DNA of 32,468 nucleotides from Ignavibacteriota bacterium (lineage in GTDB: Bacteria > Bacteroidota > Ignavibacteria > UBA10030). The stretch spans positions 98,138-130,605 of the forward strand of contig PMZI01000045.1 of NCBI GenBank assembly GCA_003170475.1, written 5' to 3'. The notes under the pieces are model-generated. The model made no database searches. It worked only from the letters and a program-made list of their open reading frames with translations, and had not been told where the DNA came from. A program made the position numbers and the translations under genes. How positions within the stretch are numbered: position 1 is the stretch's first letter; every line of letters starts with the position of its first letter. Shown here in pieces: positions 2,650 to 19,172 of this stretch.

Positions 2650-2904
2650 ATGATACGAGGCAAAGTGACAATCGCCGAGGAGATCTGCAAAGGATGTGAG
2701 CTCTGTATTACCGCTTGTCCTCAGGAAAGTCTTGGTCTTTCCGATAAGATTAACCTGAAGGGATATCGCTACGCAGTGTTGATCCAGGACAATTGCACAG
2801 GTTGCATAAACTGTGCATTGGTATGCCCGGATGCAGCGATCACTGTTTATCGTCAAAAGAAACCAGTCAAAGGTGTCGGACCGCAGGTTCAGATTGCTGC
2901 CTAG
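2650..2904 (+). CDS. vorD: 2-oxoacid:ferredoxin oxidoreductase, delta (2x[4Fe-4S] ferredoxin) subunit
   Basis: An 84-residue bacterial-type ferredoxin with two C-x2-C-x2-C-x3-CP motifs: Cys13, 16, 19 and 23, and Cys49, 52, 55 and 59. These should bind two [4Fe-4S] clusters. In multi-subunit Vor/Kor/Por enzymes this subunit passes electrons from the catalytic core to free ferredoxin. It is the first gene of the operon and precedes the alpha, beta and gamma subunit genes, a common order for the four-subunit type. The ATG at 2650 is preceded by GAAAGGGG with nine bases of spacing, a good ribosome binding site. The 224 bases upstream hold the candidate sigma54 promoter and the two inverted-repeat elements. 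Confidence 0.9.
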   Translation: MIRGKVTIAEEICKGCELCITACPQESLGLSDKINLKGYRYAVLIQDNCTGCINCALVCPDAAITVYRQKKPVKGVGPQVQIAA

Positions 2905-2931
2905 CCGCCGATATCGGTTCTTTCAAAAACA

Positions 2932-4044
2932 ATGACAAACAAAGTTATGCCAACGCTCGATAAGACAGAAGTTCGTCTGATGAAAGGGAACGAGGCGCTT
3001 GCCGAAGCCGCACTACGGGCTGGCATGCAGGCGTACTTCGGTTATCCCATTACACCTCAGTCCGAAGTCATTGAGTATCTGATGGCCGAACAGCCGAAGC
3101 ACAAGAATTGTGTCGTGCTGCAGGCTGAGAGTGAGGTCGCCGCCATCAACATGGTTTTTGGAGCCTCAGGCGCAGGCGCACGAGTGATGATCTCGTCGTC
3201 AGGGCCGGGGATTAGTTTGATGCAGGAAGGCATCTCCTACATGGCGTCGGCACAACTGCCGTGCCTGATCGTCAACGTGCAACGTGGAGGCCCGGGCCTT
3301 GGGACCATCCAGCCATCGCAAGGTGATTACTTTCAGGCAACTAAAGGGGGAGGCCACGGAGACTATCGCTTGATTGTTCTCGCTCCGGGTTCCGTCCAGG
3401 AAATGGCCGACTTTGTGTTCGAAGGTTTCAGGTTGGCAGAGAAGTACCGAACTCCTGCTCTCATCCTGACCGACGGTGCTCTGGGTCAGATGATGGAGAA
3501 AGTCTCCCTGCCGCCTCTTGGATCGCTGCCCTATCCGGACACGCCATGGGCAACGATGGGGAAGAAACCAGGTGAAAAACGTCACATCATTACGTCGCTC
3601 TTCATGCAGCCTGAGGAGATGGAAGAGGTCAACATGACACTCCAGAAAAAGTACAGGCTGATAGAAGAAACCGAAGTCCGATACGAGGAGTTCGGTGTGG
3701 ATGATGCGGACGTTCTCCTGGTAGCGTTTGGCCTTGTTGCGCGCATCTGTCAGAAAGCGATGCAGCAAGCGCGTGCGCGAGGACTGAAGGTCGGTCTGTT
3801 GCGTCCGATCACGCTCTTTCCGTTCCCCGAAAAGCGCATCGCAGAGTTATCCGCGCGAGTTGCCTCTGTGCTCACCGTTGAGATGAACGCAGGCCAGATG
3901 TTAGAAGATGTTCGCCTTGCGGTTGAAGGACGCTGCCCCGTGCACTTTAAGGGTCGCATGGGCGGGATGATTCCTTCTCCGGATGAAGTGCTCGAGGCAA
4001 TCGAAGCCATCGCAGAGAAACACAATGTCGAATTGCAAAGGTGA
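2932..4044 (+). CDS. vorB: 2-oxoacid:ferredoxin oxidoreductase, alpha subunit (VorB/KorA type)
   Basis: A 370-residue alpha subunit of the pyruvate-ferredoxin-oxidoreductase superfamily. It holds the pyrimidine-binding domain (KGNEALAEAALRAG, FGYPITPQSE), the segment QAESEVAAINMVFGASGAGARVM broken by conserved SSSGPG, then RGGPGLGTIQPSQGDYFQ and GGGHGDYR, followed by a C-terminal domain (about 250-370) with RPITLFPFPE. With the beta subunit it oxidatively decarboxylates a 2-oxoacid to acyl-CoA, or runs in reverse as a carboxylating synthase. The GGGHGDYR region is most like subunits annotated VorB (branched-chain 2-oxoacids), but sequence alone does not separate 2-oxoisovalerate, 2-oxobutyrate and 2-oxoglutarate enzymes. 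ATGs at 2932 and 2947 are both usable; neither has a strong Shine-Dalgarno. A palindrome CCGATATCGG sits in the gap after vorD. Confidence 0.92.
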   Translation: MTNKVMPTLDKTEVRLMKGNEALAEAALRAGMQAYFGYPITPQSEVIEYLMAEQPKHKNCVVLQAESEVAAINMVFGASGAGARVMISSSGPGISLMQEGISYMASAQLPCLIVNVQRGGPGLGTIQPSQGDYFQATKGGGHGDYRLIVLAPGSVQEMADFVFEGFRLAEKYRTPALILTDGALGQMMEKVSLPPLGSLPYPDTPWATMGKKPGEKRHIITSLFMQPEEMEEVNMTLQKKYRLIEETEVRYEEFGVDDADVLLVAFGLVARICQKAMQQARARGLKVGLLRPITLFPFPEKRIAELSARVASVLTVEMNAGQMLEDVRLAVEGRCPVHFKGRMGGMIPSPDEVLEAIEAIAEKHNVELQR

Positions 4045-4048
4045 TTCC

Positions 4049-4825
4049 ATGGATCTTCCTCCCATTACGAATGGATTTGAACTTGTATATCAAAAGCCCC
4101 AGACGCTGACCGAGACACCGATGCATTATTGCCCCGGCTGCGGTCATGGGGTTGTGCACCGGGTCTTGATGGAAGTGATCGATGAAATGGGTCTTCAGGA
4201 CAGGACGATTGGCGTCGCGCCTGTTGGATGCTCGGTGTTCGCGTACGAGTACATGAATATTGATGTTCAAGAAGCCGCCCACGGAAGGGCGTCCGCCGTT
4301 GCGACTGGCATTAAACGCGTGTTACCTGACCGGGTTGTGTTTTCGTATCAAGGTGATGGTGACCTCGCTGCGATCGGAACCGCCGAGACGATCCACACGG
4401 TGAATCGAGGCGAGAATATTCTGATGCTATTTATCAACAACGGCGTCTATGGTATGACCGGGGGTCAAATGGCTCCTACGACGCTTCTCGGGATGAAGAC
4501 CACGACATCTCCCTATGGTCGTGAAACCAGCCTCGCTGGTTATCCCTTGAAAATCACAGAGCTCCTGGCTCAACTTCCGGGCTCCTACTACGTGACGCGT
4601 CAAGCAGCGCACACTGCCGCTGCCGTACGGAAGCTGAAGAAGGCTGTCCAGCTTTCGCTTCAATACCAGTTGCTCAACAAAGGGACGTGCTTCATCGAGG
4701 TTGTCTCCAATTGTCCGTCCGGCTGGAAAATGACGCCGACGGAATCGAATAAATGGTTGGAAGCAAATATGTTCCCGATCTACCCGCTGGGGGATTTGAA
4801 GACCCCGGCTCAACCAATGAACTAG
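4049..4825 (+). CDS. vorA: 2-oxoacid:ferredoxin oxidoreductase, beta (TPP-binding) subunit
   Basis: A 258-residue thiamine-pyrophosphate subunit. The TPP/Mg motif is GDGD at 102-105 with the closing Asn pair at 130-131, followed by GMTGGQMAPTT. Cys28 and Cys31 of YCPGCGHG, Cys61 (PVGCS) and a late Cys (SNCPSGW) are positioned to bind the subunit's [4Fe-4S] cluster. The frame is open upstream into the alpha gene, but the start is set at ATG 4049: it lies five bases after the alpha stop, has AAAGGTGA four bases upstream, and gives the usual N-terminus. It forms the active site with the alpha subunit. Strong conservation and tight coupling make the assignment secure; the exact 2-oxoacid is not. 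Confidence 0.93.
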   Translation: MDLPPITNGFELVYQKPQTLTETPMHYCPGCGHGVVHRVLMEVIDEMGLQDRTIGVAPVGCSVFAYEYMNIDVQEAAHGRASAVATGIKRVLPDRVVFSYQGDGDLAAIGTAETIHTVNRGENILMLFINNGVYGMTGGQMAPTTLLGMKTTTSPYGRETSLAGYPLKITELLAQLPGSYYVTRQAAHTAAAVRKLKKAVQLSLQYQLLNKGTCFIEVVSNCPSGWKMTPTESNKWLEANMFPIYPLGDLKTPAQPMN

Positions 4826-4838
4826 GTGGTACAATCCC

Positions 4839-5408
4839 ATGACGAACACGCAAGAAATCATTATTGCCGGTTTTGGGGGACAAGGGGTCCTCTCGATGGG
4901 TCAGTTGCTGGTCTATGCAGCGATGATAGAAGGGAAAGAAGTAAGCTGGATGCCCTCCTACGGTCCCGAGATGCGCGGAGGAACCGCGAATTGCATGGTC
5001 ATCATCTCCGAGGCTCGTATCAGCTCTCCCATTCTCTCGAAATTTGATTCCGCGATTGTTCTCAACCAGCCATCTATGGACAAGTTCCTCGGAAAGGTTC
5101 ATCCAGGCGGTCTTGTCATTTACGAGCGTTCTACGATCATTAATCCGCCCGCTCGGACCGACATCGAGGTGCTTGGTCTTCCGGCGATTGAGGAGGCCCA
5201 CCGGCTGACGAGCAAGCAAGTGGCGAATGTGGTATTGCTCGGGGCATTTCTCGAGCGCCGACCAGTCGTGAAGCCCGAGAATGTGATCATAGCGCTCCGT
5301 AAAGTCCTTCCGCCGCACCGCCAGCATCTGTTGCCGATCAACGAGCAAGCCCTGGTGAGAGGAAGAGAACTTGCGATCGAGGCTCTTGCTGAGTCAGTCG
5401 TACGGTGA
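4839..5408 (+). CDS. vorC: 2-oxoacid:ferredoxin oxidoreductase, gamma subunit
   Basis: A 189-residue gamma subunit of the same enzyme. The N-terminus IIIAGFGGQGVLSMGQLL is the typical glycine-rich opening of the family, followed by SWMPSYGPEMRGGTANC, also diagnostic. Length is normal for a free gamma subunit; in many relatives this domain is fused to the alpha chain. The gene starts 13 bases after the beta stop with GGTGG upstream of the ATG. It completes the delta-alpha-beta-gamma set, so a functional complex is expected. No missing motif or frameshift is visible. Confidence 0.92.
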   Translation: MTNTQEIIIAGFGGQGVLSMGQLLVYAAMIEGKEVSWMPSYGPEMRGGTANCMVIISEARISSPILSKFDSAIVLNQPSMDKFLGKVHPGGLVIYERSTIINPPARTDIEVLGLPAIEEAHRLTSKQVANVVLLGAFLERRPVVKPENVIIALRKVLPPHRQHLLPINEQALVRGRELAIEALAESVVR

Positions 5409-5719: not shown

Positions 5720-6148
5720 ATGAGTGTTCTCTTCAGCAGGCAATGCGAATATGCCCTTCAAGCTGTCATGTTTCTGGCCTTGAAGGCCGACGGTGAAAGA
5801 ACTTCGATCCGGGATCTGACAAAGAAAGTTAAAATCCCGCATCATTTTCTCGCAAAGATCCTGCAAGACCTTGCCTACAAAGGACTGCTGGTATCGCAGA
5901 AGGGTCCGACGGGAGGATTTGCGTTGGCGAAGTCGGCAAAGGAGATCACGCTCTTTGATATCGTCGATGCCATCGACGGATCTGCTTTCATGCAGAACTG
6001 CGTTTTGGGTTTTCCCGAATGCAGCGGTAAGAGCCCTTGCGCTGTGCACGAGAAGTGGGGTGCCATGCGGGAAGAACTGAGACTGATGCTCGCGAGCAAG
6101 AATGTCGCTCAGATGGCAAAGGAAATGAAAAAATCGGAATATCGATAG
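5720..6148 (+). CDS. Rrf2/IscR-family transcriptional regulator
   Basis: A 142-residue Rrf2 protein starting MSVLFSRQCEYALQAVMFLA at ATG 5720; the longer in-frame start at 5675 lies inside the preceding gene and would add an untypical N-terminus. The winged helix (SIRDLTKKVKIPHHFLAKIL, then KGPTGGFAL in the wing) binds DNA. Three cysteines, Cys94-x6-Cys101-x5-Cys107, correspond to the Fe-S ligand cluster of IscR and NsrR, so it probably senses Fe-S status, oxygen or NO through a bound cluster. As the last gene of an operon for an oxygen-sensitive Fe-S enzyme it may autoregulate that operon. The inverted repeat at 2591-2612 is a candidate operator. A terminator follows 48 bases after the stop. 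Confidence 0.9.
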   Translation: MSVLFSRQCEYALQAVMFLALKADGERTSIRDLTKKVKIPHHFLAKILQDLAYKGLLVSQKGPTGGFALAKSAKEITLFDIVDAIDGSAFMQNCVLGFPECSGKSPCAVHEKWGAMREELRLMLASKNVAQMAKEMKKSEYR

Positions 6149-6195: not shown

Positions 6196-6230
6196 TGGCC
6201 CCGTCCATTGGACGGGGCCAGTATGTTTTT
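6196..6230 (+). terminator. Intrinsic terminator after the vor-rrf2 operon
   Basis: TGGCCCCGTCC (6196-6206) and GGACGGGGCCA (6210-6220) form an 11-base perfect stem with a very tight loop. A T5 run at 6226-6230 follows after five bases. On the minus strand no T-run follows, so it mainly terminates the plus-strand operon, but the strong stem lies between convergent operons and may slow transcription from both sides. Confidence 0.75.
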
Positions 6231-6254: not shown

Positions 6255-6749
6255 CTAAGCGGACTTGGCAACGAGCAATTTTCGAGTGTACGCGATGAGT
6301 CCGCCCGCATCGATGATCGCCTGGCGTGCTTTGGGAAGAGGTTCGATAGCGAACCGTTTGCCACTGGTCTTGTTGACGATCTCGTCGTTCGTGAATTCAA
6401 GATCGTCTCCTTCCGATGCCTCAATCGTGGGACACACGACAGTGCGCAATCCCAAATTGATTCCGTTCTGAAGAAAAATCCTCGCGAATCCCGGTGCCAC
6501 GATGACGAGTTCATGGCCTTTCAGTGTGGAGACCGCTTGCTCTCGCGAGGAGCCGCATCCGAAATTCTTGCCGCCGACAATCACGCTCCCCGCAGGGATT
6601 TGCTTCGATTTCAGCTTGCTGTTGAAGTCCGTCATGTCTGAAAACGCATACTGCGGAGTTTCGCTCGGCAGTACTGTGGCCATGTAGCGACCCGGATAGA
6701 TCACGTCGGTCGAGATATCGTCGCCGAGTTTGATGACGACTTGTGCCAT
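6255..6749 (-). CDS. leuD: LeuD-type aconitase-family hydratase, small subunit
   Basis: A 164-residue swivel-domain subunit of the LeuC2/LeuD2 (archaeal-type) isopropylmalate/methylmalate/homoaconitate dehydratase group. It begins with GDDISTDVIYPGRY and contains GKNFGCGSSREQA. The loop that selects substrate in this group reads YMAT (residues 22-25). Methanogen homoaconitase has an Arg in this loop, whereas isopropylmalate and methylmalate isomerases carry a small or hydrophobic residue; Ala24 therefore argues against homoaconitate. This is inference from remembered family knowledge. It is the last gene of the minus-strand operon and starts one base after the leuC stop. It forms a heterodimer with the LeuC-type subunit next to it. 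Confidence 0.92.
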   Translation of the reverse strand: MAQVVIKLGDDISTDVIYPGRYMATVLPSETPQYAFSDMTDFNSKLKSKQIPAGSVIVGGKNFGCGSSREQAVSTLKGHELVIVAPGFARIFLQNGINLGLRTVVCPTIEASEGDDLEFTNDEIVNKTSGKRFAIEPLPKARQAIIDAGGLIAYTRKLLVAKSA

Positions 6750-6750
6750 A

Positions 6751-8043
6751 TTATTTTGCTCCTTTCCGGGGATTCGTTATGACACCCTTCACCGCTGAGG
6801 CGGCCGCGACGGCCGGTGAGCATAAGAACACCTGGGAATTTGGATTGCCCATACGTCCTTTGAAATTACGATTCGTTGTTGAAAGGGCTGTTTCGCCATC
6901 GCCGAGAGCGCCTTCATGGATACCAAGGCAAGGTCCGCAGCCGGGGTTCATCACCACCGCTCCCGCCTTCATAAACGTTCCGATATAGCCTTTCGCAAGC
7001 GCCTGAGCGTATATCCTTCCCGAAGCCGGAAAGACCAGCATTCGAGTACCCTGCGAAACCTTTTTTCCTTTGAGGATCCCTGCCGCAATCGCCAGGTCAT
7101 CGAGCCGTCCGTTCGTGCACGATCCGATCACCACTTGATGAACCCTGATCCCTTTGACTGAGGCGACAGACTTTACATTGTCTACAGTATGCGGACACGC
7201 GACTTGGGATTCAAGTTTCGAAACGTCGATCTCGATGACTTTCTCGTACGCCGCGTCTTTGTCAGCGACCACCGGAGCGATTGTTCCCTTGACTCCTGCT
7301 TCTTCCCGCAGGTAGCGCGCAGTTTCTTTATCTGCAGGAACAATTCCTGCTGTCGCGCCGGCTTCGACGGACATATTGCAAATCACCAGTCGTCCTGAGG
7401 TAGACATCGAGCGAATGGTCGGGCCGTGAAATTCTATGACTTTAAAGTTGGCGCCTTGCGCGGTCAATTTCCCAATCAGGTGCAAGATGAGATCTTTCGG
7501 TCCGACAAACTTCTTGAACTTACCCTTGACGTTCACTTTGATGGTAGCGGGGACTTCGACGTTGAGGACTGTTCCCAGTGTCCAGACGCTGGCCATTTCT
7601 GTCGCACCAATGCCGAACGCAAATGCCCCGAGCGCACCGTGACTCGTTGTGTGTGAATCGGTGCCCACCACAACAAAGCCGGGCCGCACATAACCGTTCT
7701 CCGGAAGGATCTGGTGACAGATGCCGCCCACATCTCCACGGATGTCATGGAATTTGCCGACTCCCTGTGCTCCAACGAACTCCCGCACTTTTTTCTGGTT
7801 TGAAGCTGTCTTCGGCGACTCGGCCGGCACGCGATGGTCGAAGATAACAGACACTTTTGATGGATCCCAGATGTTCGGCTGAAGATTCGTTCCCTGATAC
7901 ACTTCAAGGAACTGGTTGATCACCAGCGCGGCGTTTTCGTGGGACATCGCGAGATCAACCTTTGGCTCGACGACATCTCCAGCTTTCACCGATGGAAGGC
8001 CGGAGGCACGCGCCAAGATCTTCTCAGCAACGGTCATACCCAT
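6751..8043 (-). CDS. leuC: LeuC-type aconitase-family hydratase, large subunit
   Basis: A 430-residue Fe-S subunit of the LeuC2 group. Motifs in order are FDHRVPAESPKTASN, HDIRGDVGGICHQILPE, VVGTDSHTTSHGALGAFAFGIG, then the three cluster cysteines in GSCTNGR and NPGCGPCLG. The [4Fe-4S] cluster should activate the hydroxyl of the substrate as in aconitase. With the small subunit it isomerises a 2-hydroxy-2-alkyl diacid to the 3-alkyl isomer: isopropylmalate, citramalate/3-methylmalate, or possibly citrate or homocitrate. The start has AAGGAG six bases upstream. No leuA or citramalate synthase gene accompanies it here; instead it follows a CoA-transferase and an HMG-CoA-lyase-like gene, which makes the leucine pathway an unlikely sole role. 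Confidence 0.92.
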   Translation of the reverse strand: MGMTVAEKILARASGLPSVKAGDVVEPKVDLAMSHENAALVINQFLEVYQGTNLQPNIWDPSKVSVIFDHRVPAESPKTASNQKKVREFVGAQGVGKFHDIRGDVGGICHQILPENGYVRPGFVVVGTDSHTTSHGALGAFAFGIGATEMASVWTLGTVLNVEVPATIKVNVKGKFKKFVGPKDLILHLIGKLTAQGANFKVIEFHGPTIRSMSTSGRLVICNMSVEAGATAGIVPADKETARYLREEAGVKGTIAPVVADKDAAYEKVIEIDVSKLESQVACPHTVDNVKSVASVKGIRVHQVVIGSCTNGRLDDLAIAAGILKGKKVSQGTRMLVFPASGRIYAQALAKGYIGTFMKAGAVVMNPGCGPCLGIHEGALGDGETALSTTNRNFKGRMGNPNSQVFLCSPAVAAASAVKGVITNPRKGAK

Positions 8044-8057
8044 ATGGATCTCCTTGG

Positions 8058-9251
8058 TTAGATGATCTTTGAGTCTCTGAGCTTCTTGATTTCATCTTCA
8101 GAATAGCCGATCCCCCGAAGGACCTCCTTCGTATGTTGTCCAAGGGTGGGTGGGGGTGATTCGACGGAGCCCGGCGTTTTTGAATACTTTGCCGTCAAAT
8201 TGAACAGCTTGAAATCTCCAATCCCTTCCACGGAAGTCGTTCCGAAGGTGTTGCGGTGTTTTATTTGCTCTTGATTCATCGCTCCTTCGAGCGTCAGAAT
8301 CGCTCCGGAAGGTACGTCGTTCTTGTTCAACATATCAACCCAGGAGTTGGTCTCCTTCTCAGCCAGTTTCGCTTCGAGAAGCGGCGTCAGAGCCTTGCGG
8401 TTTTTCTTCCGTGTGTCCCGTTCTTGAAAACGTGGATCAGTTTTCAGCTCCGAAACGCCCAGGACGTCAGCTACGGCTTCCCACTGCTCTTGCTTGTTGG
8501 CAGCAATGTTGATGAATCCGTCTTTGGTCCTGAATGTGCCTGACGGAGCTGCAGTGAAATTGTCATTTCCCATCATCACGGGCTGCTGTCCGCCGATCAT
8601 CAGGTTGGCGACAACCCATCCCATCAATGGCATGATGGAATCGAGCAGGGCAACATCGATGAATTGACCTTCCCCTGTTCTTTCGCGGAAGTAGAGCGCA
8701 CCCATGATGGCGAATGCGGCATTCAATCCGCCCACCGTGTCGCAGACGGGAAATCCCGCGCGCAGCGGATTGAGCCGTTCGTCTCCGTTGATTGCCATTT
8801 CGCCGCTCAGACCCTGGATGATCTGGTCGTAGGCCGGTTTCAATGCGTCTGGACCGCTCTGGCCAAAGCCGGATATTCCACAGTACACCAATCTTGGATT
8901 GATTTGGCTCAAGGCCTCATAGGAGATGCCCAAACGCTTCATGACGTCAGGGCGAAAATTCTCCACGACCACATCGGCGGCAGCGACGAGTTTCTTGAAT
9001 ATTTCTTTTCCCTCAGGTGTCTTGAGGTTGAGGGTCAGCGATTTCTTGTTTGCATTCTGTGCGAGAAAACTGGTCCCCATGAGCATCTGATTGTATTTCG
9101 GGACACATCCCAGTTTTCGTGCAAGGTCTCCGTCGGCGGGGTTTTCGATCTTGATAACCTCTGCGCCGCAGAGTGCCAGGTGGAGAGTAGCAAATGGTCC
9201 CGACAGAACATTTGTCAGATCGAGGACCCGAATTCCATCAAGGAGCTTCAT
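8058..9251 (-). CDS. CaiB/BaiF (class III) CoA-transferase
   Basis: A 397-residue class III CoA-transferase. It opens LLDGIRVLDLTNVLSGP, has IKIENPADGD and VVENFRPDVMKRLG, and the catalytic Asp corresponding to Asp169 of formyl-CoA transferase is Asp171 in FPVCDTVGG. Family members move CoA between carboxylic acids through an aspartyl-CoA anhydride. Members include succinyl-CoA:(R)-citramalate CoA-transferase, the mammalian glutarate/HMG transferase, and succinyl-CoA:malate transferase. Three bases separate it from the upstream HMG-CoA-lyase-like gene, so the likeliest role is to load CoA on the substrate of that lyase, or unload its product. Cytoplasmic. Family is certain; substrate is inferred. 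Confidence 0.93.
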   Translation of the reverse strand: MKLLDGIRVLDLTNVLSGPFATLHLALCGAEVIKIENPADGDLARKLGCVPKYNQMLMGTSFLAQNANKKSLTLNLKTPEGKEIFKKLVAAADVVVENFRPDVMKRLGISYEALSQINPRLVYCGISGFGQSGPDALKPAYDQIIQGLSGEMAINGDERLNPLRAGFPVCDTVGGLNAAFAIMGALYFRERTGEGQFIDVALLDSIMPLMGWVVANLMIGGQQPVMMGNDNFTAAPSGTFRTKDGFINIAANKQEQWEAVADVLGVSELKTDPRFQERDTRKKNRKALTPLLEAKLAEKETNSWVDMLNKNDVPSGAILTLEGAMNQEQIKHRNTFGTTSVEGIGDFKLFNLTAKYSKTPGSVESPPPTLGQHTKEVLRGIGYSEDEIKKLRDSKII

Positions 9252-9254
9252 TGA

Positions 9255-10193
9255 TCAATGTATCCTTTTCTGATTCTCGTTGGCGGCAACCGTCCGGAGG
9301 GGTCCGGTCTTGTAGACCAATCCGGGCATCTCCCGATTGAAAAACGTGGCGACATCTTTAGCCAGCATGACGAGTTTGTCGAGGTCGATGTCTTGTCGCA
9401 TTCCCATCCGATGGAGAAAGTGCACAAAATCCTCTGTGCAGACATTTCCTGCAGCGACCTTTGTGAACGGGCAGCCTCCCAATCCTGCAAAGGAGGATTC
9501 AAAGCACCTGACACCGACATCCATTGCAGCAACGCAATTGGCGATCCCCATTCCGTAAGTATTATGGAAATGACATGTGCAGTCTGTGGTGGCGTCGAGT
9601 TTAAGAATTTCCTCGAACATACGTTTCACCTGGTAGGGCTGCGCGTGCCCTGCTGTGTCCGCCAGCGAAATGTTCTTCAGTCCGGACTCCAGGTAGTTCC
9701 GGACTATCCCAAGAACGCGTTCCTGTGGGATCGCACCCTCGAAACCGCATCCAAATGCAGATTGAACAGAGACCTGGACTTTCTTGCCGGACTTCGTGGC
9801 CGTCTGGGCCATTGCAGTGATGCGTTTCAGCGCTTCGTCCGTCGACATGCCGGTGTTCTTCCTGCTATGGGTTTCACTGGCAGAAACTCCCATGCAGTAC
9901 ATATCGACGCCGCATGATTCGCCACGCTCCAGCCCCTTTTCGTTGAGCACAAGACCGGAGAGGGTGACATGACTGGGTTTATTGCCGGGTTCTCTGAAGA
10001 ACGCAAAGAGTTTGTCCGTGTCTGCCATTTGGGGTACTTTGTCCGGATGGACGAACGATCCTATTTGAATGATATCGACCCTGGCTTCGATCAGATTCTT
10101 GATCCACGTGACCTTCTGCTCGAATGGAACGACTTGCTTTTCCATTTGCAGGCCATCGCGCAAACCAACTTCGTGTACCACAATTTCGTTCAT
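9255..10193 (-). CDS. HMG-CoA lyase-family protein (possible citramalyl-CoA lyase)
   Basis: A 312-residue DRE-TIM metallolyase. The catalytic pieces of HMG-CoA lyase are all present: GLRDGLQ with Arg12 and Asp13, SFVHPDKVPQM, the metal-binding HFHNTYG with His208 and His210, GLGGCP with Cys241, and AAGN with Asn250. The Asp after the second His of the human motif is Asn here. It should cleave a 3-hydroxyacyl-CoA branched at C3 to acetyl-CoA plus a keto acid, or run in reverse. Known products are acetoacetate from HMG-CoA and, for the Chloroflexus relative, pyruvate from (R)-citramalyl-CoA. Its neighbours (CoA-transferase, LeuCD, dehydrogenase) favour citramalyl-CoA, because no other leucine-degradation genes such as methylcrotonyl-CoA carboxylase are nearby. 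Substrate remains inferred. Confidence 0.9.
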   Translation of the reverse strand: MNEIVVHEVGLRDGLQMEKQVVPFEQKVTWIKNLIEARVDIIQIGSFVHPDKVPQMADTDKLFAFFREPGNKPSHVTLSGLVLNEKGLERGESCGVDMYCMGVSASETHSRKNTGMSTDEALKRITAMAQTATKSGKKVQVSVQSAFGCGFEGAIPQERVLGIVRNYLESGLKNISLADTAGHAQPYQVKRMFEEILKLDATTDCTCHFHNTYGMGIANCVAAMDVGVRCFESSFAGLGGCPFTKVAAGNVCTEDFVHFLHRMGMRQDIDLDKLVMLAKDVATFFNREMPGLVYKTGPLRTVAANENQKRIH

Positions 10194-10224
10194 GAGGCGT
10201 TCTTTCTCCCGAGAGGCCGTAGGT

Positions 10225-11346
10225 TTATCTCAGTTGTGATGCGATCGCCTGTGCCATTTGGGTGGTTGTATTCGATCCGTTCATGTCGTAGGTACGGATC
10301 TTGCCCTCCTTGATCACCTCGGCTGTGGCTTGTTCGAGGGCTGATCCTTTTTCGGGTTCACCCAGCCAATCGAGCATCATCTTTGCCGCAAGGATCGTGG
10401 CTATGGGATTCACCTTATTGAGTCCCGTGTACTTTGGAGCGGATCCGTGCGTTGGTTCGAAAACTGCGAGTTTGTCTCCGATGTTCCCCGAACATCCGAA
10501 TCCGAGGCCCCCGACCATCTGTGCACAGAGATCGGATATAATATCGCCGTAAAGATTCGGCGCGACAATGACGTCGTAGTTGAATGGATTCTTCAGGAGC
10601 CACATCGTCATCGCATCGATGTTCGCGTCATCCATCTTGATCTCCGGATACTGCTGAGCGACTTCTTTCGCGGTCTCGAAGAACAGACCATCGGTTGCAC
10701 GGACAACGTTTGCCTTATGCACTATGGTGACTTTCTTGCGTTTGAATTTCCGGGCGAAATCAAACGCTGCTCGTACGATTCTCTCCGATCCGGCGCGGGT
10801 ATTGATCTTGCAGGAAATCGCATACTGGTCGACAGGGAGCTTGCTGAAGGGAGCAAACGGTTTTGAGAGGCGGCTGAGAGTGTCTGCAAGTTCTTGCGGA
10901 ACAGGGGAGAACTCGACTCCGGAATAGAGATCTTCGGTGTTCTCGCGGAAAACGACCAGGTCGATTGCTTCCTTGAAGTTGATAGGGTTGCCCGGATACG
11001 CCTTGCACGGACGGAGGCAAATGTACAGATCAAACATCTGACGCATCCGTACTATGGGAGATCGATAGACGAGGTTCTTGGTCTGCAGCTCAGGGACGAG
11101 TTCCTTTTGAGCTGCCTTCATCGGCTTTGAAGTTATGGCCCCAAACAATGCCGCGTCCACATTATTCAGCAGGTCGATGGTACGCTGCGGAAAGGCATCG
11201 CCTTCCTTGCACCAGAATTCCCAACCAATATCGCCGTGAAAATATTCGGCATCGAGACCAATTTTGTCAAGAACAATTTTCGTCGCATCGAGTACTTCTA
11301 CGCCTATGCCATCGCCCGGCAACCAAGCTATCTTGTATTTTGACAT
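10225..11346 (-). CDS. Isocitrate/isopropylmalate-family beta-decarboxylating dehydrogenase
   Basis: A 373-residue enzyme that oxidises and decarboxylates a (2R,3S)-3-substituted malate. Conserved residues include Arg102, Arg112, Arg134 (FRENTED), Tyr141, Lys211 (HKANVVRATDG) and the metal Asp residues 244, 268 and 272 (NLYGDIISD). The cofactor loop reads HGSAPKYTGLNKV: Lys305, Tyr306 and Val312 match the NADP determinants of E. coli Icd (Lys344, Tyr345, Val351), not the Asp-Ile of NAD enzymes. The substrate helix reads RSPIVRMR: Ser96 matches Icd Ser113 but Ile98 replaces Asn115, where IPMDH also has a hydrophobic residue. That suits 3-methylmalate or isopropylmalate better than isocitrate. 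First gene of the operon; the start has AGAGGGAG five bases upstream. Confidence 0.88.
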   Translation of the reverse strand: MSKYKIAWLPGDGIGVEVLDATKIVLDKIGLDAEYFHGDIGWEFWCKEGDAFPQRTIDLLNNVDAALFGAITSKPMKAAQKELVPELQTKNLVYRSPIVRMRQMFDLYICLRPCKAYPGNPINFKEAIDLVVFRENTEDLYSGVEFSPVPQELADTLSRLSKPFAPFSKLPVDQYAISCKINTRAGSERIVRAAFDFARKFKRKKVTIVHKANVVRATDGLFFETAKEVAQQYPEIKMDDANIDAMTMWLLKNPFNYDVIVAPNLYGDIISDLCAQMVGGLGFGCSGNIGDKLAVFEPTHGSAPKYTGLNKVNPIATILAAKMMLDWLGEPEKGSALEQATAEVIKEGKIRTYDMNGSNTTTQMAQAIASQLR

Positions 11347-11656: not shown

Positions 11657-12823
11657 ATGATCCACGATGTCGATACGCACATTGAAACAAACCCTGGGAT
11701 CGTCGAATCATTGATGCTGGCGCCCGGAGTCAGGAAAATCCCCAGGGAACGCCGAAGAAGAAGACTTCCGAAATCGGACACTCGAGGCTGGAAGGGTATA
11801 TTCTGGCGACTGCAATTCGATTCGCAGTATCTTCGAACTGTGGTCCAGAGTGCATTTGCTCTTCTGTGCCTTTGGATCGGGGTTGAATTCTACCTCTTTG
11901 TTCGTTGGGGTTTGTCCGGGAACAATTCGGCGATTGTCAGTCGACCACCCGGTGTAGAGGGATTCCTACCAATCAGTGCCCTTATGAGCTTGAAGTACTG
12001 GCTGCAAACTGGTATCATCAACAATATCCATCCTTCCGGCCTCTTCATCTTTTGCGCCCTTCTTCTCATCAGCTTTTTGATGAAGAAGGCTTTCTGCAGT
12101 TGGATGTGTCCGATAGGGACCTTGAGCGAATCTCTCTGGATGCTGGGAGAGAGAATCTTCGGAAGAAACCGGCGCCTCCCGCAATGGTTGGATTATCCGC
12201 TTCGGACATTGAAGTATCTGATCCTGGCGTTCTTTGCGTACGTGACCGAGACGATGGATGTCGGCGGACTTCGAGCGTTCATCGATAGCCCCTACAACAG
12301 AATGGCAGATGTGAAGATGTATCTTTTCTTCGCTAACATCTCCTTCTTTGCTGTCTGGACGATACTTGTGCTTGTCGTCCTTTCCGTGGCGATAAAAAAC
12401 TTCTGGTGCCGATACCTCTGTCCCTACGGTGGCCTGCTCGGTTTGATCAGTGTCCTGAGCCCGTTGAAGGTGACGCGCCAGACCTCGACCTGCATTGATT
12501 GTGAGCTGTGCAGCAAAGCTTGTCCATCAGGGATCAACGTGCATTCAGTGAAGAGGGTCTGGAGCGATGAATGCACAGCATGCTACATGTGCATCGAGGT
12601 CTGCCCTGTGAAAAACACACTCGAGATCAAGGCTGCAAAAGATTTGAAGCCTATTCCATCGTGGGTGTTCGGAAGTCTGCTCGCTGGCGTCTTTGTTGGC
12701 GTCATCGGTCTTGCAATGCTCACCGGAAACTGGCACAATAGCATCTCACACGAAGAGTACCAGAAACGATTCAAGGAGCTCAATGCTCCTGCGTACGAAC
12801 ACTTTGGTGCACGAGGTCATTGA
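11657..12823 (+). CDS. Membrane-bound 4Fe-4S electron-transfer protein (NapH/CcoG-like)
   Basis: A 388-residue membrane protein with about five hydrophobic segments (near 62-82, 126-142, 182-199, 222-246 and 337-356). After the second comes CSWMCP (Cys147, Cys151) and after the fourth CRYLCPYG (Cys251, Cys255), the paired C-x3-CP motifs of NapH, NosR and related proteins. Two classical 4Fe-4S motifs follow: Cys279/282/285/289 and Cys306/309/312/316. The protein probably carries electrons between quinol or a membrane partner and a soluble acceptor. The N-terminal 40 residues are soluble and Arg-rich (RERRRRR). The start has GGAGAAGG nine bases upstream. No nap, nos or cytochrome oxidase genes are adjacent, so the partner is unknown. 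A methyltransferase gene follows immediately. Confidence 0.88.
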   Translation: MIHDVDTHIETNPGIVESLMLAPGVRKIPRERRRRRLPKSDTRGWKGIFWRLQFDSQYLRTVVQSAFALLCLWIGVEFYLFVRWGLSGNNSAIVSRPPGVEGFLPISALMSLKYWLQTGIINNIHPSGLFIFCALLLISFLMKKAFCSWMCPIGTLSESLWMLGERIFGRNRRLPQWLDYPLRTLKYLILAFFAYVTETMDVGGLRAFIDSPYNRMADVKMYLFFANISFFAVWTILVLVVLSVAIKNFWCRYLCPYGGLLGLISVLSPLKVTRQTSTCIDCELCSKACPSGINVHSVKRVWSDECTACYMCIEVCPVKNTLEIKAAKDLKPIPSWVFGSLLAGVFVGVIGLAMLTGNWHNSISHEEYQKRFKELNAPAYEHFGARGH

Positions 12824-13892: not shown

Positions 13893-16800
13893 ATGGTTGA
13901 TCACAAAACAAACACGCGAATGCCAATGAGGGCAACGGTAGGTTTTGTGGTTTTTGCGGCTCTCGTGATAACCATCGGTTATCTTTACTACCGGGACGAG
14001 ATGGCACAATATCGTCATCAGGTCGGCCGGGAATTGGATACCTATGCGAGTCTCAAGACTTCGCAGATCAACCGATGGAGAAACGAACGACTGGCTGACG
14101 CCGGCTCATTTTCCCAGAACAGGGCATTTGCAGAATTGATGGAGCGCCTCGTCAATGATCCGGCGAGTTCGAACATCAATGGACAGTTGCGCACAGCACT
14201 GGCGCCAATTCTCAGCAATCATGACTATGCAGCGATCACGTTCATCGATCTCGCAGGGAAGGTCCATTTTATCCTTGGAGACTCAGATCTTGTCTCGCCG
14301 ATGTGCAGCCATGACTCTGCCGGCAAGTCCAATGTGCAGTCCCGTGAGTTTGCCCCCTTGTTGACCCGAGTGGAACAGCGCATTCACGTCGATATTCTTG
14401 CTCCGATCATGAAGGGCAAGGGCCACAAGTCTGCCCTCCTCGGCTATCTCATTTTTCACATTGATCCATACCTGGAACTGTATCCGCTGGTGCAGTCTTG
14501 GCCGGCGCCCGAGAAAACTTCCGAGTGTCTCCTTCTCGAGGCGACATCAGGTGACATCCTCCTGTTGAACGATTCTCAATTGGTCGGCGATAGCCTGCAT
14601 CACCTTGCGGTGAAGGAATTGGATTCCCGTTTCATTGAAGCTCGTGCTGCGACGGGAGAGGAAGGTCTTTTGCAGGGACAAGATTACCGTCATTGCGAAG
14701 TGCTTGCGTCGGTAAAAAAACTCCCGGGCACCAATTGGGTTCTTGTGACGAAAGCCGGAGCGGGGGCACTCAGCGTTCCAGTGAGGCTCCGAATATGGCT
14801 CGCTGTCGGTCTGACCTTGGCCCTTCTTGTCAGTGCGGGTATCACACTCTTCCTTCTGTGGCGACGGAAACTCTCCCCGGCGGACATCGTCTCGGGTGAG
14901 CTCCAGTCGTTTGCCGGACCGTCCATGCAGCAGTATGACATGCTCACTCGTCATGCGAACGACATCATCCTCTTAATGACGCCGGACGGAACGATTGTCC
15001 ATGCAAATGATCGGGCGGGTGAAGCATACGGCTATTCGGCCAAAGAGATGGCGGGGATTCATATCAGTCGGATACGCGCTCCCGAGACACTTGCATCTCT
15101 GAGACGGCAGACAGAACTGATTGCCGAACGAGGGGGGTTGATTTTCGAGACTATCCATCAGCACCGCGATGGCCGGACGTTTCCTGTGGAAACGAGTTCG
15201 AGGCAGATTGAAATCGATGGTGTGAAGTACTTTCAGGGCATCGTCCGCGACACTACTGGCCGGAAGAGATCCGAAGAACGGCTCAGCAAACTGAATAACT
15301 GCCTGTTGGGATTTGGGTCTGATCCTGTGAAGAATATCAATTCACTTGTGGAACTCTGCGGGCAATTGCTTGGTGCATCAAGTGCAGCATATAACCGGCT
15401 GGAAGGGGAGTTCCTTCGTTCCGTCGGTTACTGGAATGTCTCGATTGACCATGAACCTCTGGATGTCGCTCAAGGGCATGTGTGTTGTGATGTGATTACT
15501 TCAGGTCGAGAAGATATCGTGGTGGTTCGCGACCTGGATCAAACGGACTATGCAAGAACCGATCCCAATGTGACTCGGTATCGGCTCAAAACTTATGTCG
15601 GAAAAGGAGTACGGTTTGGAACTACGACCATCGGATCCCTGTGCGCGGTGTTCCAGGAGGACTTTGTTCCCTCCGAGGATGACGAGAGACTCATAGGAAT
15701 TGTCGCCTCGGCCCTTGGGGTTGAGGAAAACCGGCGTCACAAGGAGGATGCTCTGCGAGAAAGTGAGGACCGCTATCGAAAGCTCGTGGAATTCTCGCCG
15801 GATGCGATCGCAGTGCATATCGATGGACGGTTTGTCTATGTCAATCGGGCCGGGATCAACATGATGGGTGCAAGAGACATGAACGATCTTCTGGGGAAAC
15901 CGATCCTGGACATCGTTCACCCGGACTACAGGGAGCTTGCGCAGAAGAGGGCTTTTGAGCAACCCGTAGAACGGATCGAGCAGCCATTCGTCGAGGAGAA
16001 ATTTGTGCGCTTCAACGGGTCGACGATCGACGTTGAGGTAGCGACGACTCCGATTACTTATGAAGGCAAGGCTGCCACATTGGTGGTCGCACGTGACCTG
16101 GAGGATCGACATCGGGAGCAGGAAGAATTAATACGATTGCGCGAGGCTGTTGAAACCACAGGAGAGGTTGTCTTCACAACCAACGCGGAAGGCACGTTCA
16201 CGTATGTGAACCCCGAGTTCACTCGTATCTACGGATATGCTTCAGCGGAGGTTGTCGGAAAGGCAACACCATGGATTCTGAGAAGCGGATTGATGGATCG
16301 CGCGACATATGATGAATTCTGGAATGAGCTTCGCTCGAAGCGGGTATTCCGGGGTGAGTTGATCAACAAGACAAAGGACGGTCGATTGATTACGGCCGAG
16401 GGGTCTGCGAGTCCGATCGTTGGCAAGGATGGATCTGTTCTGGGGTATCTTGCGATTCAGAGGGATGTTACTGACCGGAGGCAGGTAGAGGAGGCTCTTC
16501 GGAGATCGGAAGAAAGCTACCGGGGGCTCTTCAACAGTGTCAGCGATGCGATCTACATCCTGGATCGAGAAGGAAAGTTTGTTGACGTGAACCAGGGGGC
16601 CTTGACGATGTACGGCCACTCTCGCGATTTCTTCATCGGAAACACACCTGCCGTTCTGGGTGCGTCGGGCATGAACGATATGGCAAAGACCTCGGACGCA
16701 GTGAAAAAGACATTTGAGGGTTTGCCTCAGCGGTTCGAATGGTGGGGGCTTCGGAAGAACGGAACTATCTTCCCGAAAGAAGTGCGCCTGAATCGCAGCG

Positions 16801-19172
16801 TCTACTTTGGGCAAGATGTAGTCGTGGCACTTGGTCAGGATATCACAGATCGGAAAAAGGCCGAGGATGCGATTCGAAGATCCGATCTCAGGTTTCGGCA
16901 AGTGTGGGGTAGCTCGAGGGATGGAATGCGCATTCTGGATGAAAGCGGAACGATCATTATGGTGAATGAGGCCTTCTGTCGTCTTGTAGGATTTGAAGAG
17001 AAGGATCTTGTCGGGAAAACCTTTCCGACTGCGTACATGTCAGGGGATGAGGCGAAAGATCTCGATGATCTGAGGATCTTCAAGCAGAGGTTTCAGACGC
17101 GTTCATTTGCCTCCCGTCAGGAAGTACCCATCAGGCTCAAAGGGGGGAAGCACATTCTCGTTGAGCTCTCGAACGACGTTCTCGAAATGGAAAACGAGGC
17201 ACCGCTTCTGCTGAGCATTTTCAGGGATTTTACAGAGCGCCGGGAATCCGAACGGAAGCTCCGTGAGAGTGAAGAGAAATTTCGATCGCTCTCGGAGCAG
17301 TCCCCGAACATGATCTACATCAACAAAGGCGGAAGGATTGTCTACGCAAATCAGAGATGCGTCGACGTTATGGGCTTCTCCAAGGAAGAGTTCTACACTG
17401 AGGAATTCAACTTTCTCTCTCTGATTGCCGCAGAACACCTGTCGACCGTGCGCAAGAATTTTGCGCGGCACCTGGCAGGAGAAGAAATCGATCCCTATGA
17501 GTATGCCCTGTATACCAAAGACCGAAAAAGGCTCCTCGGCATCCACACCACCAAGCTTATTAACTTTGAGGAGGGGAATGCAGTCCTTGGAATTATTACC
17601 GACGTCACCGGAACTCGCCACGTGGAAGAAGAACTCCGCAAACTTCAGCAAGCGGTGGAACAAAGTCCTGCATCGATCATCATCACCGATGTCGAAGGAA
17701 ACATCGAGTACGCCAACCCCCGATTCACGGAAGTGAGCGGCTATAAGTTGGAGGAAGTCATCGGCGCAAATCCGCGTATTCTAAAATCGGATCATACCTC
17801 GCGTGACGAATACGCTATATTGTGGGAGACGATCAAAGCCGGCAGGGAGTGGAGAGGGGAATTTCACAACAAGAAAAAGAACGGCGAGCTCTTTTGGGAG
17901 CAGGCTTCGATTTCTCCCATCAGAGATGCAGCCGGCACGATCACGCATTTCCTCGCAGTAAAAGAAGATATCACAAAAAGAAAAATGCTCGAGCTGCAGC
18001 TCTGGCAGGCGCAGAAGATGGAGAGTATTGGCACTCTTGCCAGCGGTATTGCGCATGACTTCAACAATATCCTTGGGATCATTCTGGGCTATGCAAGCCT
18101 GCTGACCCAGAAACCCGTCGAATCGTCGAAGTTGAACGCATATGCGGATTCGATCGTGAAAGCGGCCGATCGCGGGGCAGCATTGGTGCGCCAGATTCTC
18201 ACCTTTGCGCGGAAGAGCGAGTTCAAGTTGCAGAAGGTGGATGTGAACTCGATCATTGGTGAGCTGGCGAAAATGCTCGGTGAGACATTTCCGAAGACCA
18301 TCAGCTTGTCGCTGCAGCTTGAAAAGGCACTACCTGCACTGTCGATCGATCGTACCCAACTGCACCAGGCTCTGCTCAACCTCTGTGTCAATGCGCGCGA
18401 TGCCATGTCCGAGCGAGGGTCTCTGACGATCACCACGAAACTTGTATCCGGAGATACCCTGGGGCCGCGATTTGCTGCGGCGTACGGGAGGAGGTTTGTG
18501 GAAATCAATGTCTCTGATACAGGAATCGGAATGGACGAGACAACAAAGATCCGAATCTTTGAACCATTCTTCACCACAAAGGAAATCGGAAAAGGAACAG
18601 GGCTTGGGCTCGCGGTCGTGTTTGGCGTTGTTCAGGAGCATCTGGGATTTGTCGATGTGGAGAGTACGGTTGCTGAAGGGTCGACCTTCCATGTGTACCT
18701 GCCGGTTCCGGAAGGTGCCATGTCGGGATCCGGTGAGCTCAGCTCCGTCGGGGTGGATATGCCCGGCGGATCGGAGACGATACTCGTTGTCGAGGATGAA
18801 GATCTCATGCGAGAATTTCTCGTCGCATTGCTTGAGCAGAAGGGTTACAGGGTGCTGACGGCGATCGATGGAGAAGAGGCCATCAAGATTCACGAAGCGA
18901 ACGCGCAGCAAATCGATCTGGTGCTTTCCGACGTAGGGCTTCCAAAACTGGATGGCTGGGAGGCGAGCAAGCAGATGAAAAAGGCGAATCCCCAGTTGCT
19001 TGTATTCCTGGCAAGCGGGTACCTGGACTCTCATCTCCGGGCAGAAATATCGGAAGGGGGCATTCGGGGATTCATCGAAAAGCCGTACCGGCCGAATGAT
19101 ATCCTGATGAGAGTACGAGAGGCGCTCGATTCTCGAAAACCTTCTTCTCAACCGGGCCAGGAGAAGCTGTAA
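13893..19172 (+). CDS. Hybrid sensor histidine kinase with seven PAS domains, one GAF domain and a receiver
   Basis: A 1759-residue membrane kinase. Segment 13-32 is a transmembrane helix, about 33-297 an extracytoplasmic sensor region, and 300-325 a second helix. Then follow PAS1 (about 348-457), a GAF domain (464-615), PAS2 (621-740), PAS3 (749-865), PAS4 (869-990), PAS5 (992-1115), PAS6 (1122-1240) and PAS7 (1248-1365). The HisKA domain has the phospho-His at 1388 in GIAHDFNN. The HATPase domain has LLNLCVNARDAM, DTGIGMD and GTGLGLAVV. A C-terminal receiver starts near 1630 with VVEDED and has its acceptor Asp at 1680 (LSDVGLPKLDG). GIAHDFNNIL kinases form a known hybrid subfamily. There is no output-domain gene beside it, so its partner is elsewhere. 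Start: GGAGGG six bases before the ATG. Confidence 0.95.
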   Translation: MVDHKTNTRMPMRATVGFVVFAALVITIGYLYYRDEMAQYRHQVGRELDTYASLKTSQINRWRNERLADAGSFSQNRAFAELMERLVNDPASSNINGQLRTALAPILSNHDYAAITFIDLAGKVHFILGDSDLVSPMCSHDSAGKSNVQSREFAPLLTRVEQRIHVDILAPIMKGKGHKSALLGYLIFHIDPYLELYPLVQSWPAPEKTSECLLLEATSGDILLLNDSQLVGDSLHHLAVKELDSRFIEARAATGEEGLLQGQDYRHCEVLASVKKLPGTNWVLVTKAGAGALSVPVRLRIWLAVGLTLALLVSAGITLFLLWRRKLSPADIVSGELQSFAGPSMQQYDMLTRHANDIILLMTPDGTIVHANDRAGEAYGYSAKEMAGIHISRIRAPETLASLRRQTELIAERGGLIFETIHQHRDGRTFPVETSSRQIEIDGVKYFQGIVRDTTGRKRSEERLSKLNNCLLGFGSDPVKNINSLVELCGQLLGASSAAYNRLEGEFLRSVGYWNVSIDHEPLDVAQGHVCCDVITSGREDIVVVRDLDQTDYARTDPNVTRYRLKTYVGKGVRFGTTTIGSLCAVFQEDFVPSEDDERLIGIVASALGVEENRRHKEDALRESEDRYRKLVEFSPDAIAVHIDGRFVYVNRAGINMMGARDMNDLLGKPILDIVHPDYRELAQKRAFEQPVERIEQPFVEEKFVRFNGSTIDVEVATTPITYEGKAATLVVARDLEDRHREQEELIRLREAVETTGEVVFTTNAEGTFTYVNPEFTRIYGYASAEVVGKATPWILRSGLMDRATYDEFWNELRSKRVFRGELINKTKDGRLITAEGSASPIVGKDGSVLGYLAIQRDVTDRRQVEEALRRSEESYRGLFNSVSDAIYILDREGKFVDVNQGALTMYGHSRDFFIGNTPAVLGASGMNDMAKTSDAVKKTFEGLPQRFEWWGLRKNGTIFPKEVRLNRSVYFGQDVVVALGQDITDRKKAEDAIRRSDLRFRQVWGSSRDGMRILDESGTIIMVNEAFCRLVGFEEKDLVGKTFPTAYMSGDEAKDLDDLRIFKQRFQTRSFASRQEVPIRLKGGKHILVELSNDVLEMENEAPLLLSIFRDFTERRESERKLRESEEKFRSLSEQSPNMIYINKGGRIVYANQRCVDVMGFSKEEFYTEEFNFLSLIAAEHLSTVRKNFARHLAGEEIDPYEYALYTKDRKRLLGIHTTKLINFEEGNAVLGIITDVTGTRHVEEELRKLQQAVEQSPASIIITDVEGNIEYANPRFTEVSGYKLEEVIGANPRILKSDHTSRDEYAILWETIKAGREWRGEFHNKKKNGELFWEQASISPIRDAAGTITHFLAVKEDITKRKMLELQLWQAQKMESIGTLASGIAHDFNNILGIILGYASLLTQKPVESSKLNAYADSIVKAADRGAALVRQILTFARKSEFKLQKVDVNSIIGELAKMLGETFPKTISLSLQLEKALPALSIDRTQLHQALLNLCVNARDAMSERGSLTITTKLVSGDTLGPRFAAAYGRRFVEINVSDTGIGMDETTKIRIFEPFFTTKEIGKGTGLGLAVVFGVVQEHLGFVDVESTVAEGSTFHVYLPVPEGAMSGSGELSSVGVDMPGGSETILVVEDEDLMREFLVALLEQKGYRVLTAIDGEEAIKIHEANAQQIDLVLSDVGLPKLDGWEASKQMKKANPQLLVFLASGYLDSHLRAEISEGGIRGFIEKPYRPNDILMRVREALDSRKPSSQPGQEKL

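Follow-up and report, generated by a model that had tools for sequence, protein, structure and literature searches.

A conserved five-gene operon of an Ignavibacteriota bacterium that probably completes lysine catabolism by running the homocitrate steps in reverse

Which substrate is processed, and in which direction, by an operon that joins a coenzyme A (CoA)-transferase and a lyase to an isomerase and a dehydrogenase of the kind used in 2-oxoacid elongation? The operon lies in a 32,468-nucleotide stretch of the genome of an Ignavibacteriota bacterium (assembly GCA_003170475.1, contig PMZI01000045.1, positions 98,138 to 130,605; hereafter, the window), where five minus-strand genes at 6255-11346 are separated by gaps of 31, 3, 14, and 1 bases. 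A preliminary description of this DNA had reported dehydrogenase, lyase, CaiB, LeuC, and LeuD genes there, and the genes, strand, coordinates, and families were all confirmed by the present analysis (profile scores of 295 bits for Iso_dh, 144 for HMGL-like, 407 for CoA_transf_3, 341 for Aconitase, and 47 for Aconitase_C). In our view, the five proteins are likely to carry out the lower half of lysine catabolism, with the homocitrate steps running in reverse. The genes, with the functions proposed for them, are as follows, HMG-CoA denoting hydroxymethylglutaryl-CoA.

10225..11346, minus strand: NADP-type beta-decarboxylating dehydrogenase, proposed homoisocitrate dehydrogenase run as a 2-oxoadipate carboxylase (PF00180, 295 bits)
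9255..10193, minus strand: HMG-CoA-lyase-like enzyme, proposed homocitryl-CoA lyase (PF00682; HMG-CoA lyase subfamily model NF004283, 279 bits, cut-off 246)
8058..9251, minus strand: CaiB family III CoA-transferase, proposed succinyl-CoA:homocitrate CoA-transferase (PF02515, 407 bits)
6751..8043, minus strand: LeuC/HacA-type large subunit, proposed homoaconitase (TIGR01343 hacA_fam, 521 bits, cut-off 386; TIGR02086, 514 bits, cut-off 410)
6255..6749, minus strand: LeuD-type small subunit, proposed homoaconitase (TIGR02087, 118 bits, cut-off 109)

The families encoded by the operon are those of the homocitrate steps, namely an HMGL-family enzyme acting on a carbon-carbon bond, an aconitase-type isomerase, and a beta-decarboxylating dehydrogenase, and the latter two share one operon, as the homocitrate segment of the alpha-aminoadipate (AAA) pathway of lysine biosynthesis would need. 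Family profiles of the five genes revealed no homocitrate synthase gene in the operon. A lyase together with a CoA-transferase in place of a synthase renders 2-oxoacid elongation reversible, and because this replacement is present here, the whole sequence of reactions would be reversible; the same logic had been put forward in the preliminary description and is supported. From what was observed, namely which genes and families are present, their linkage to lysine genes, and the conserved motifs, we infer the substrates, the CoA donor, the direction, and the role of the 2-oxoacid:ferredoxin oxidoreductase (Vor) encoded nearby, and we propose the following scenario. Lysine would first yield 2-aminoadipate and from it 2-oxoadipate, the genes for these conversions lying apart from the operon in this genome and adjoining it in some others. 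From 2-oxoadipate, CO2, and NADPH, the dehydrogenase would then form homoisocitrate, LeuCD may act as a homoaconitase turning homoisocitrate into homocitrate, the CaiB protein may form homocitryl-CoA and succinate from homocitrate and succinyl-CoA, and the lyase would cleave homocitryl-CoA to acetyl-CoA and 2-oxoglutarate. Vor may convert 2-oxoglutarate to succinyl-CoA, returning CoA for the CaiB protein and releasing the fixed CO2. The proposed intermediates (2-oxoglutarate, homocitrate, homoisocitrate, and 2-oxoadipate) and the isomerase and dehydrogenase families are shared with the AAA segment, whereas the operon differs from it in having a CoA-transferase and an HMG-CoA-lyase-like lyase for homocitrate synthase, in its proposed reversed direction, and in the NADP-type motif of its dehydrogenase.

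With less assurance, though still on balance, we favour the broader proposal that an O2-independent lysine cycle via a new metabolite, homocitryl-CoA, has spread among phyla as a five-gene cassette joining the host's own lysine-to-aminoadipate route. If true, this would explain lysine use without oxygen by many uncultured bacteria, add homocitryl-CoA as a metabolite, and assign a function to a widespread operon made up of genes similar to those for leucine, citramalate, and HMG-CoA; the pathway is directly testable with five purified proteins.

Relatives of the lyase were encoded in 423 stretches in a collection of 84,980 species genomes, and locus counts given below out of 80 refer to the best 80 of these 423, all from other genomes. 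Names among the 80 included Ignavibacteria, Acidobacteria, Aminicenantes, Opitutae, Zixibacteria, Elusimicrobia, Anaerolineae, and Calditrichaeota, the nearest named relatives of the window's genome being metagenome-assembled genomes of Ignavibacteria. Counted as tblastn matches of more than 45% identity, on contigs some of which stop early, the lyase and CaiB genes were present in 78 loci, LeuC in 57, the dehydrogenase in 56, LeuD in 52, and all five in 44. The module is thus conserved and occurs in many phyla, and the conservation of the five genes goes beyond chance. Lyase orthologs with at least 60% identity were found in 26 of the 61 genomes searched, the window's own genome included, while the module (E <= 1e-90) was present in 14 of 247 genomes of a phylum sample drawn around the genome of locus L107, from Elusimicrobia, and in 2 of 396 of a class sample around locus L117, and this sporadic occurrence suggests spread between lineages. 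Two genomes encode a second lyase paralog, 56% identical, with the other operon genes not in the fetched stretch (G206:C28, L196; G063:C14, L197). In two further loci (G058:C92 and G033:C5; L010 and L013), additional C-terminal fragments of the lyase, which look like partial duplications, lie between the lyase and CaiB genes or adjoin the lyase gene.

Genes for the conversion of lysine to 2-aminoadipate adjoin the module in several lineages. In the Ignavibacteria locus L052, an aldehyde dehydrogenase gene and a lysine 6-transaminase (LAT) gene lie upstream on the same strand (TIGR03251, 650 bits, cut-off 521); the same pair is divergent from the module in L047 and adjoins CaiB in L073, both also from Ignavibacteria and both with a LAT over the TIGR03251 cut-off. 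None of the 25 NCBIfam models shown for the aldehyde dehydrogenase of L052 reached its cut-off. A gene for L-piperidine-6-carboxylate dehydrogenase (P6CDH) flanks the module in Opitutae (L077 and L106) and Anaerolineae (L082 and L117), upstream in L077, L082, and L106 and downstream in L117, all four proteins scoring over the NF050084 cut-off of 730; L082 and L117 carry a DAO-family gene in addition, and L117 also an OCD-family gene. In the Elusimicrobiota sample, genes for lysine-ketoglutarate reductase (LKR) and saccharopine dehydrogenase (SDH) adjoin the operon in L188 (the genome of L107), L190, and L191. The top solved relatives of the L107 proteins are alpha-aminoadipic semialdehyde synthase for LKR (3.8e-83) and saccharopine dehydrogenase for SDH (1.3e-98). 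NCBIfam models gave no name to LKR or SDH: LKR scored 22.5 bits with the alanine dehydrogenase model, against a cut-off of 392, and SDH had no match. Furthermore, L195 carries on one strand the dehydrogenase, lyase, CaiB, LeuC, LeuD, LKR, SDH, and P6CDH genes, and L194, also on one strand, the P6CDH, LKR, SDH, lyase, CaiB, LeuC, LeuD, and dehydrogenase genes, with P6CDH scores of 759 and 739, respectively, on NF050084. The simple open reading frame (ORF) caller used picks antisense frames in GC-rich loci; the named genes rest on profiles or PDB matches, and further copies of named flanking genes were identified by tblastn.

In total, genes for lysine conversion to 2-aminoadipate were linked to the module in 8 of the 80 best loci and in 5 of the 14 phylum-sample genomes, L107 being counted in both. 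A random-placement model, which assumes three single-copy lysine loci per genome and ignores relatedness, gave 3e-5 and 6e-6 for these counts, and the varied gene arrangements argue for repeated linkage of the module to lysine genes. P6CDH exceeded its cut-off in 15 of 40 operon genomes versus 1 of 14 controls, which are not a matched background. In six Elusimicrobiota-group loci (L182, L183, L184, L185, L189, and L193), genes for a class III aminotransferase, a tungsten-type aldehyde ferredoxin oxidoreductase, or both adjoin the operon, and a 2-oxoacid:ferredoxin oxidoreductase is also present in five of the six; the aminotransferase and aldehyde ferredoxin oxidoreductase could stand in for the aldehyde dehydrogenase or produce 2-oxoadipate. 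In L083, the class III aminotransferase received no assignment (470 bits with GABA-transaminase models, cut-off 639; 369 bits with 2-aminoadipate transaminase, cut-off 650). A family I CoA-transferase gene (PF01144) lies near the operon at L194:15473-16132, with similar ORFs recognised by eye in L183, L189, and L191, and the enzyme might recycle succinyl-CoA from acetyl-CoA in these Elusimicrobiota-group loci.

The same neighbours bear on the direction of the pathway. Run forward, homocitrate chemistry would start from acetyl-CoA and 2-oxoglutarate and yield 2-oxoadipate or homocitrate, whether for making lysine or for some other product; the CoA-transferase and lyase are reversible in principle, and the LKR, SDH, and aldehyde ferredoxin oxidoreductase of L107, L188, and L191 could run to lysine as in fungi. 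However, P6CDH and lysine 6-transaminase, which act in lysine breakdown, are present as partners, and the NADP-type motif of the dehydrogenase suits reduction. LysA is also present in the window's genome (top match G000:C2:25699-26946, L215, spanning one TAG stop), so that the operon is not obviously required for making lysine, which is presumably made by the diaminopimelate route. We regard the forward direction as very unlikely.

The window's genome (4.08 Mb in 85 contigs) does have genes for lysine conversion to aminoadipate away from the operon, including a LAT gene (G000:C32:38777-40066, 685 bits, cut-off 521) that adjoins an aldehyde dehydrogenase ORF, and conversion of lysine to 2-aminoadipate is probably possible there. 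HglS (PF07063) was found in none of the 61 genomes and in 2 of 14 control genomes; since it was absent from all 61, treating HglS as a mutually exclusive alternative to the operon provided no contrast. Of the three HMGL-family matches in the window's genome, one is the operon lyase and the remaining two have citramalate synthase and 2-isopropylmalate synthase as their top-scoring models; the CaiB family has a single match. Separate LeuC, LeuD, and LeuB genes, one more aconitase-family gene, and two more Iso_dh genes lie outside the operon.

The preliminary description had proposed that the operon interconverts 2-oxobutyrate, or propionyl-CoA via Vor, with acetyl-CoA and pyruvate through 3-methylmalate, citramalate, and citramalyl-CoA, no citramalate synthase being needed. 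The reaction types are identical to those proposed here, LeuCD-type isomerases and LeuB-type dehydrogenases accept C5 substrates, the substrate pocket of the dehydrogenase has a hydrophobic Ile98 in place of an isocitrate-binding Asn, and the nearest solved relative of the LeuD protein is the small subunit of an isopropylmalate/citramalate isomerase, 3vba. However, the informative neighbours are the genes for lysine conversion to 2-aminoadipate, and nothing specific to propionate or threonine was recognised in the annotated part of the flanking genes. In addition, both of the synthases to be looked for were found: in an ilv/leu cluster apart from the operon, CimA (TIGR00977, 687 bits, cut-off 450) adjoins LeuA and LeuB, and citramalate would be made in this genome by CimA. 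An ordinary propionyl-CoA route is suggested by a MeaB gene next to one for a biotin-type carboxyltransferase; the latter is also what was seen that could belong to a leucine-degradation set. The earlier assignment was thus right in its type of chemistry and probably wrong in its substrate, and we judge the citramalate route to be improbable.

Motifs were counted in alignments, those of the lyase over 97 loci that include three genomes twice (L107/L188, L083/L183, and L112/L182) and the paralogous lyases L196 and L197. In the dehydrogenase, residues 94-102 (YRSPIVRMR) hardly vary across 66-67 loci. Aligned to the Escherichia coli enzyme, the pocket keeps Ser96 and has the Ile98 substitution in 66 of 66 loci; the protein lacks the Ser-x-Asn signature of the isocitrate dehydrogenase substrate pocket, which we take to be S113/N115 of E. 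coli. The top NCBIfam model for the dehydrogenase is homoisocitrate dehydrogenase AksF2 (346 bits, under the cut-off of 540). Its APKY motif, with K305 in 70 of 70 loci and Y306 in 66 of 70, is also found in an NADP-isocitrate-dehydrogenase-like paralog, the other two paralogs having APDI; APKY is presumably an NADP-type motif, which would suit carboxylation, the reductive direction. The lyase has R12, D13, H208, H210, C241, and N250 conserved in all 97 loci, and keeps these six residues in common with HMG-CoA lyase, whose subfamily model it passes. In contrast, Gln43 occupies, in 97 of 97 loci, a position at which both HMG-CoA lyase alignments shown have Glu, and the lyase does not conform to the HMG-CoA lyase motif IE(A/I)(G/T)SFV at this Glu; a changed substrate is a possible meaning of Gln43. 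The closest solved chain to the CaiB protein is succinate--hydroxymethylglutarate CoA-transferase (SUGCT; 9br6, E 2e-76), but the protein is not that equivalog, scoring 293 bits against the cut-off of 750 of the succinate--glutarate CoA-transferase NCBIfam model.

These motifs also bear on a citrate or isopropylmalate version of the chemistry, that is, 2-oxoglutarate carboxylation with citryl-CoA cleavage (a reverse tricarboxylic acid cycle) or leucine breakdown via 2-isopropylmalyl-CoA or HMG-CoA. The closest solved relatives of the dehydrogenase include the NAD-type isocitrate dehydrogenases 6ltf and 6m3s, and the lyase exceeds the HMG-CoA lyase subfamily cut-off. However, the Asn of the isocitrate pocket is replaced in every locus aligned, the genome has separate aconitase-type and isocitrate-dehydrogenase-type genes, and the neighbours are again lysine genes; for leucine breakdown, the isomerase and dehydrogenase would be superfluous, since HMG-CoA lyase requires neither. 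Such a version appears the least probable of the alternatives, and the citramalate, citrate, isopropylmalate, and forward readings are all ranked lower than lysine breakdown through reversed homocitrate steps.

Several observations weigh against the lysine pathway. No operon gene reached the equivalog cut-off of an NCBIfam model for a homocitrate-pathway enzyme. The LeuD protein is without the Arg of the methanogen homoaconitase loop, having YMAT in the window and MAT in 63 of 64 loci; the loop of 2pkp, used as the methanogen-type homoaconitase comparison, is YLRT, and we take this loop with its Arg to be a feature of the methanogen homoaconitase small subunit. No lysine gene was found in the fetched flank of 72 of the 80 loci, often on short contigs, and the window's own operon does not adjoin lysine genes. 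The presence of LAT cannot discriminate, because it exceeded its cut-off in 56 of 61 relatives regardless of whether these carry the operon, and the loci with LKR, SDH, and aldehyde oxidoreductase would by themselves also fit lysine synthesis. The main weakness in the window's organism is that a glutaryl-CoA route may coexist there: its genome, the one in which this was looked at, has, against our expectation, a glutaryl-CoA-dehydrogenase-type gene (L214:1480-2646), for which 9 of the 10 best solved relatives are named glutaryl-CoA dehydrogenase, so that the classical route is possible.

Lysine breakdown via 2-aminoadipate is known, and its upper half, with LAT or LKR/SDH followed by a semialdehyde dehydrogenase, is shared with the proposed pathway. 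The known routes end in 2-oxoadipate conversion to glutaryl-CoA or, by HglS, to D-2-hydroxyglutarate, whereas the proposed lower half is a reductive carboxylation. According to excerpts of the respective papers, glutaryl-CoA is the end of almost all MetaCyc lysine routes (PMC5653290), and HglS converts 2-oxoadipate to D-2-hydroxyglutarate using O2, which the proposed route does not require (PMC7286885). SUGCT, to which the CaiB protein is closest among solved chains, belongs to the catabolism of lysine and tryptophan according to an excerpt of a further paper (PMC7426296), and in excerpts of another, on engineered E. coli, extension from 2-oxoglutarate is mentioned in the forward direction alone (PMC12861294).

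The operon had also been likened to the (R)-citramalate CoA-transferase and (R)-citramalyl-CoA lyase of Chloroflexus aurantiacus, which we take to be a CaiB transferase and an HMG-CoA-lyase-like enzyme. In both systems a CaiB transferase gene adjoins an HMG-CoA-lyase-like gene; unlike that pair, the operon also encodes LeuCD and an Iso_dh dehydrogenase, and lysine genes lie beside it in some genomes. The excerpt of PMC3150298 names no R-citramalyl-CoA lyase gene for Chloroflexus.

The PMC literature searched (5.39 million papers), which leaves preprint servers outside its scope and holds few subscription papers, contained no mention of 'homocitryl-CoA', and no description of the five-gene set was recognised, by title or start of abstract, among the matches listed on homocitrate and lysine breakdown, the citramalate pathway, or the phyla and lysine. 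The earlier impression that the gene set is undescribed agrees with this, and the novelty of the reverse-homocitrate lysine module is provisional.

The surroundings of the operon comprise the following features.

2650..2904, plus strand: ferredoxin-type subunit of 2-oxoacid:ferredoxin oxidoreductase (ORF; the counterpart in L045 matches 4Fe-4S families)
2932..4044, plus strand: 2-oxoacid:ferredoxin oxidoreductase alpha subunit, VorB type, proposed 2-oxoglutarate enzyme (NF005507, 541 bits, cut-off 399)
3983..4825, plus strand: 2-oxoacid:ferredoxin oxidoreductase beta subunit (PF02775)
4839..5408, plus strand: 2-oxoacid:ferredoxin oxidoreductase gamma subunit (PF01558)
5720..6148, plus strand: Rrf2-family protein between oxidoreductase and operon, a regulator to judge from its position (PF02082, 110 bits)
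6196..6220, no strand assigned: terminator-like stem-loop just beyond the operon's last gene (11 pairs, 9 of them G-C, and a T-rich tail; consensus match only)

The four subunit genes at 2650-5408 bear out the presence of the nearby Vor enzyme that had been noted before, and together with the Rrf2 regulator gene they are convergent to the operon. At least two Vor-type subunits of more than 45% identity were found in 8 of the 80 lyase loci, and Vor-type subunits of 44-57% identity adjoin the operon in L182-L185 and L189. In the close relatives L043 and L045, genes for Rrf2-type regulators lie on either side of the operon. Elsewhere in the window, a NapH-like polyferredoxin membrane protein is encoded at 11657-12823, divergent from the operon, and a hybrid sensor kinase of 1759 residues with seven PAS_9 stretches, HisKA, HATPase, and receiver domains at 13893-19172. 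At 28351-29823, an LpxC fused to a FabA/FabZ-like domain is encoded within an Omp85-OmpH-LpxD-LpxC-LpxA run.

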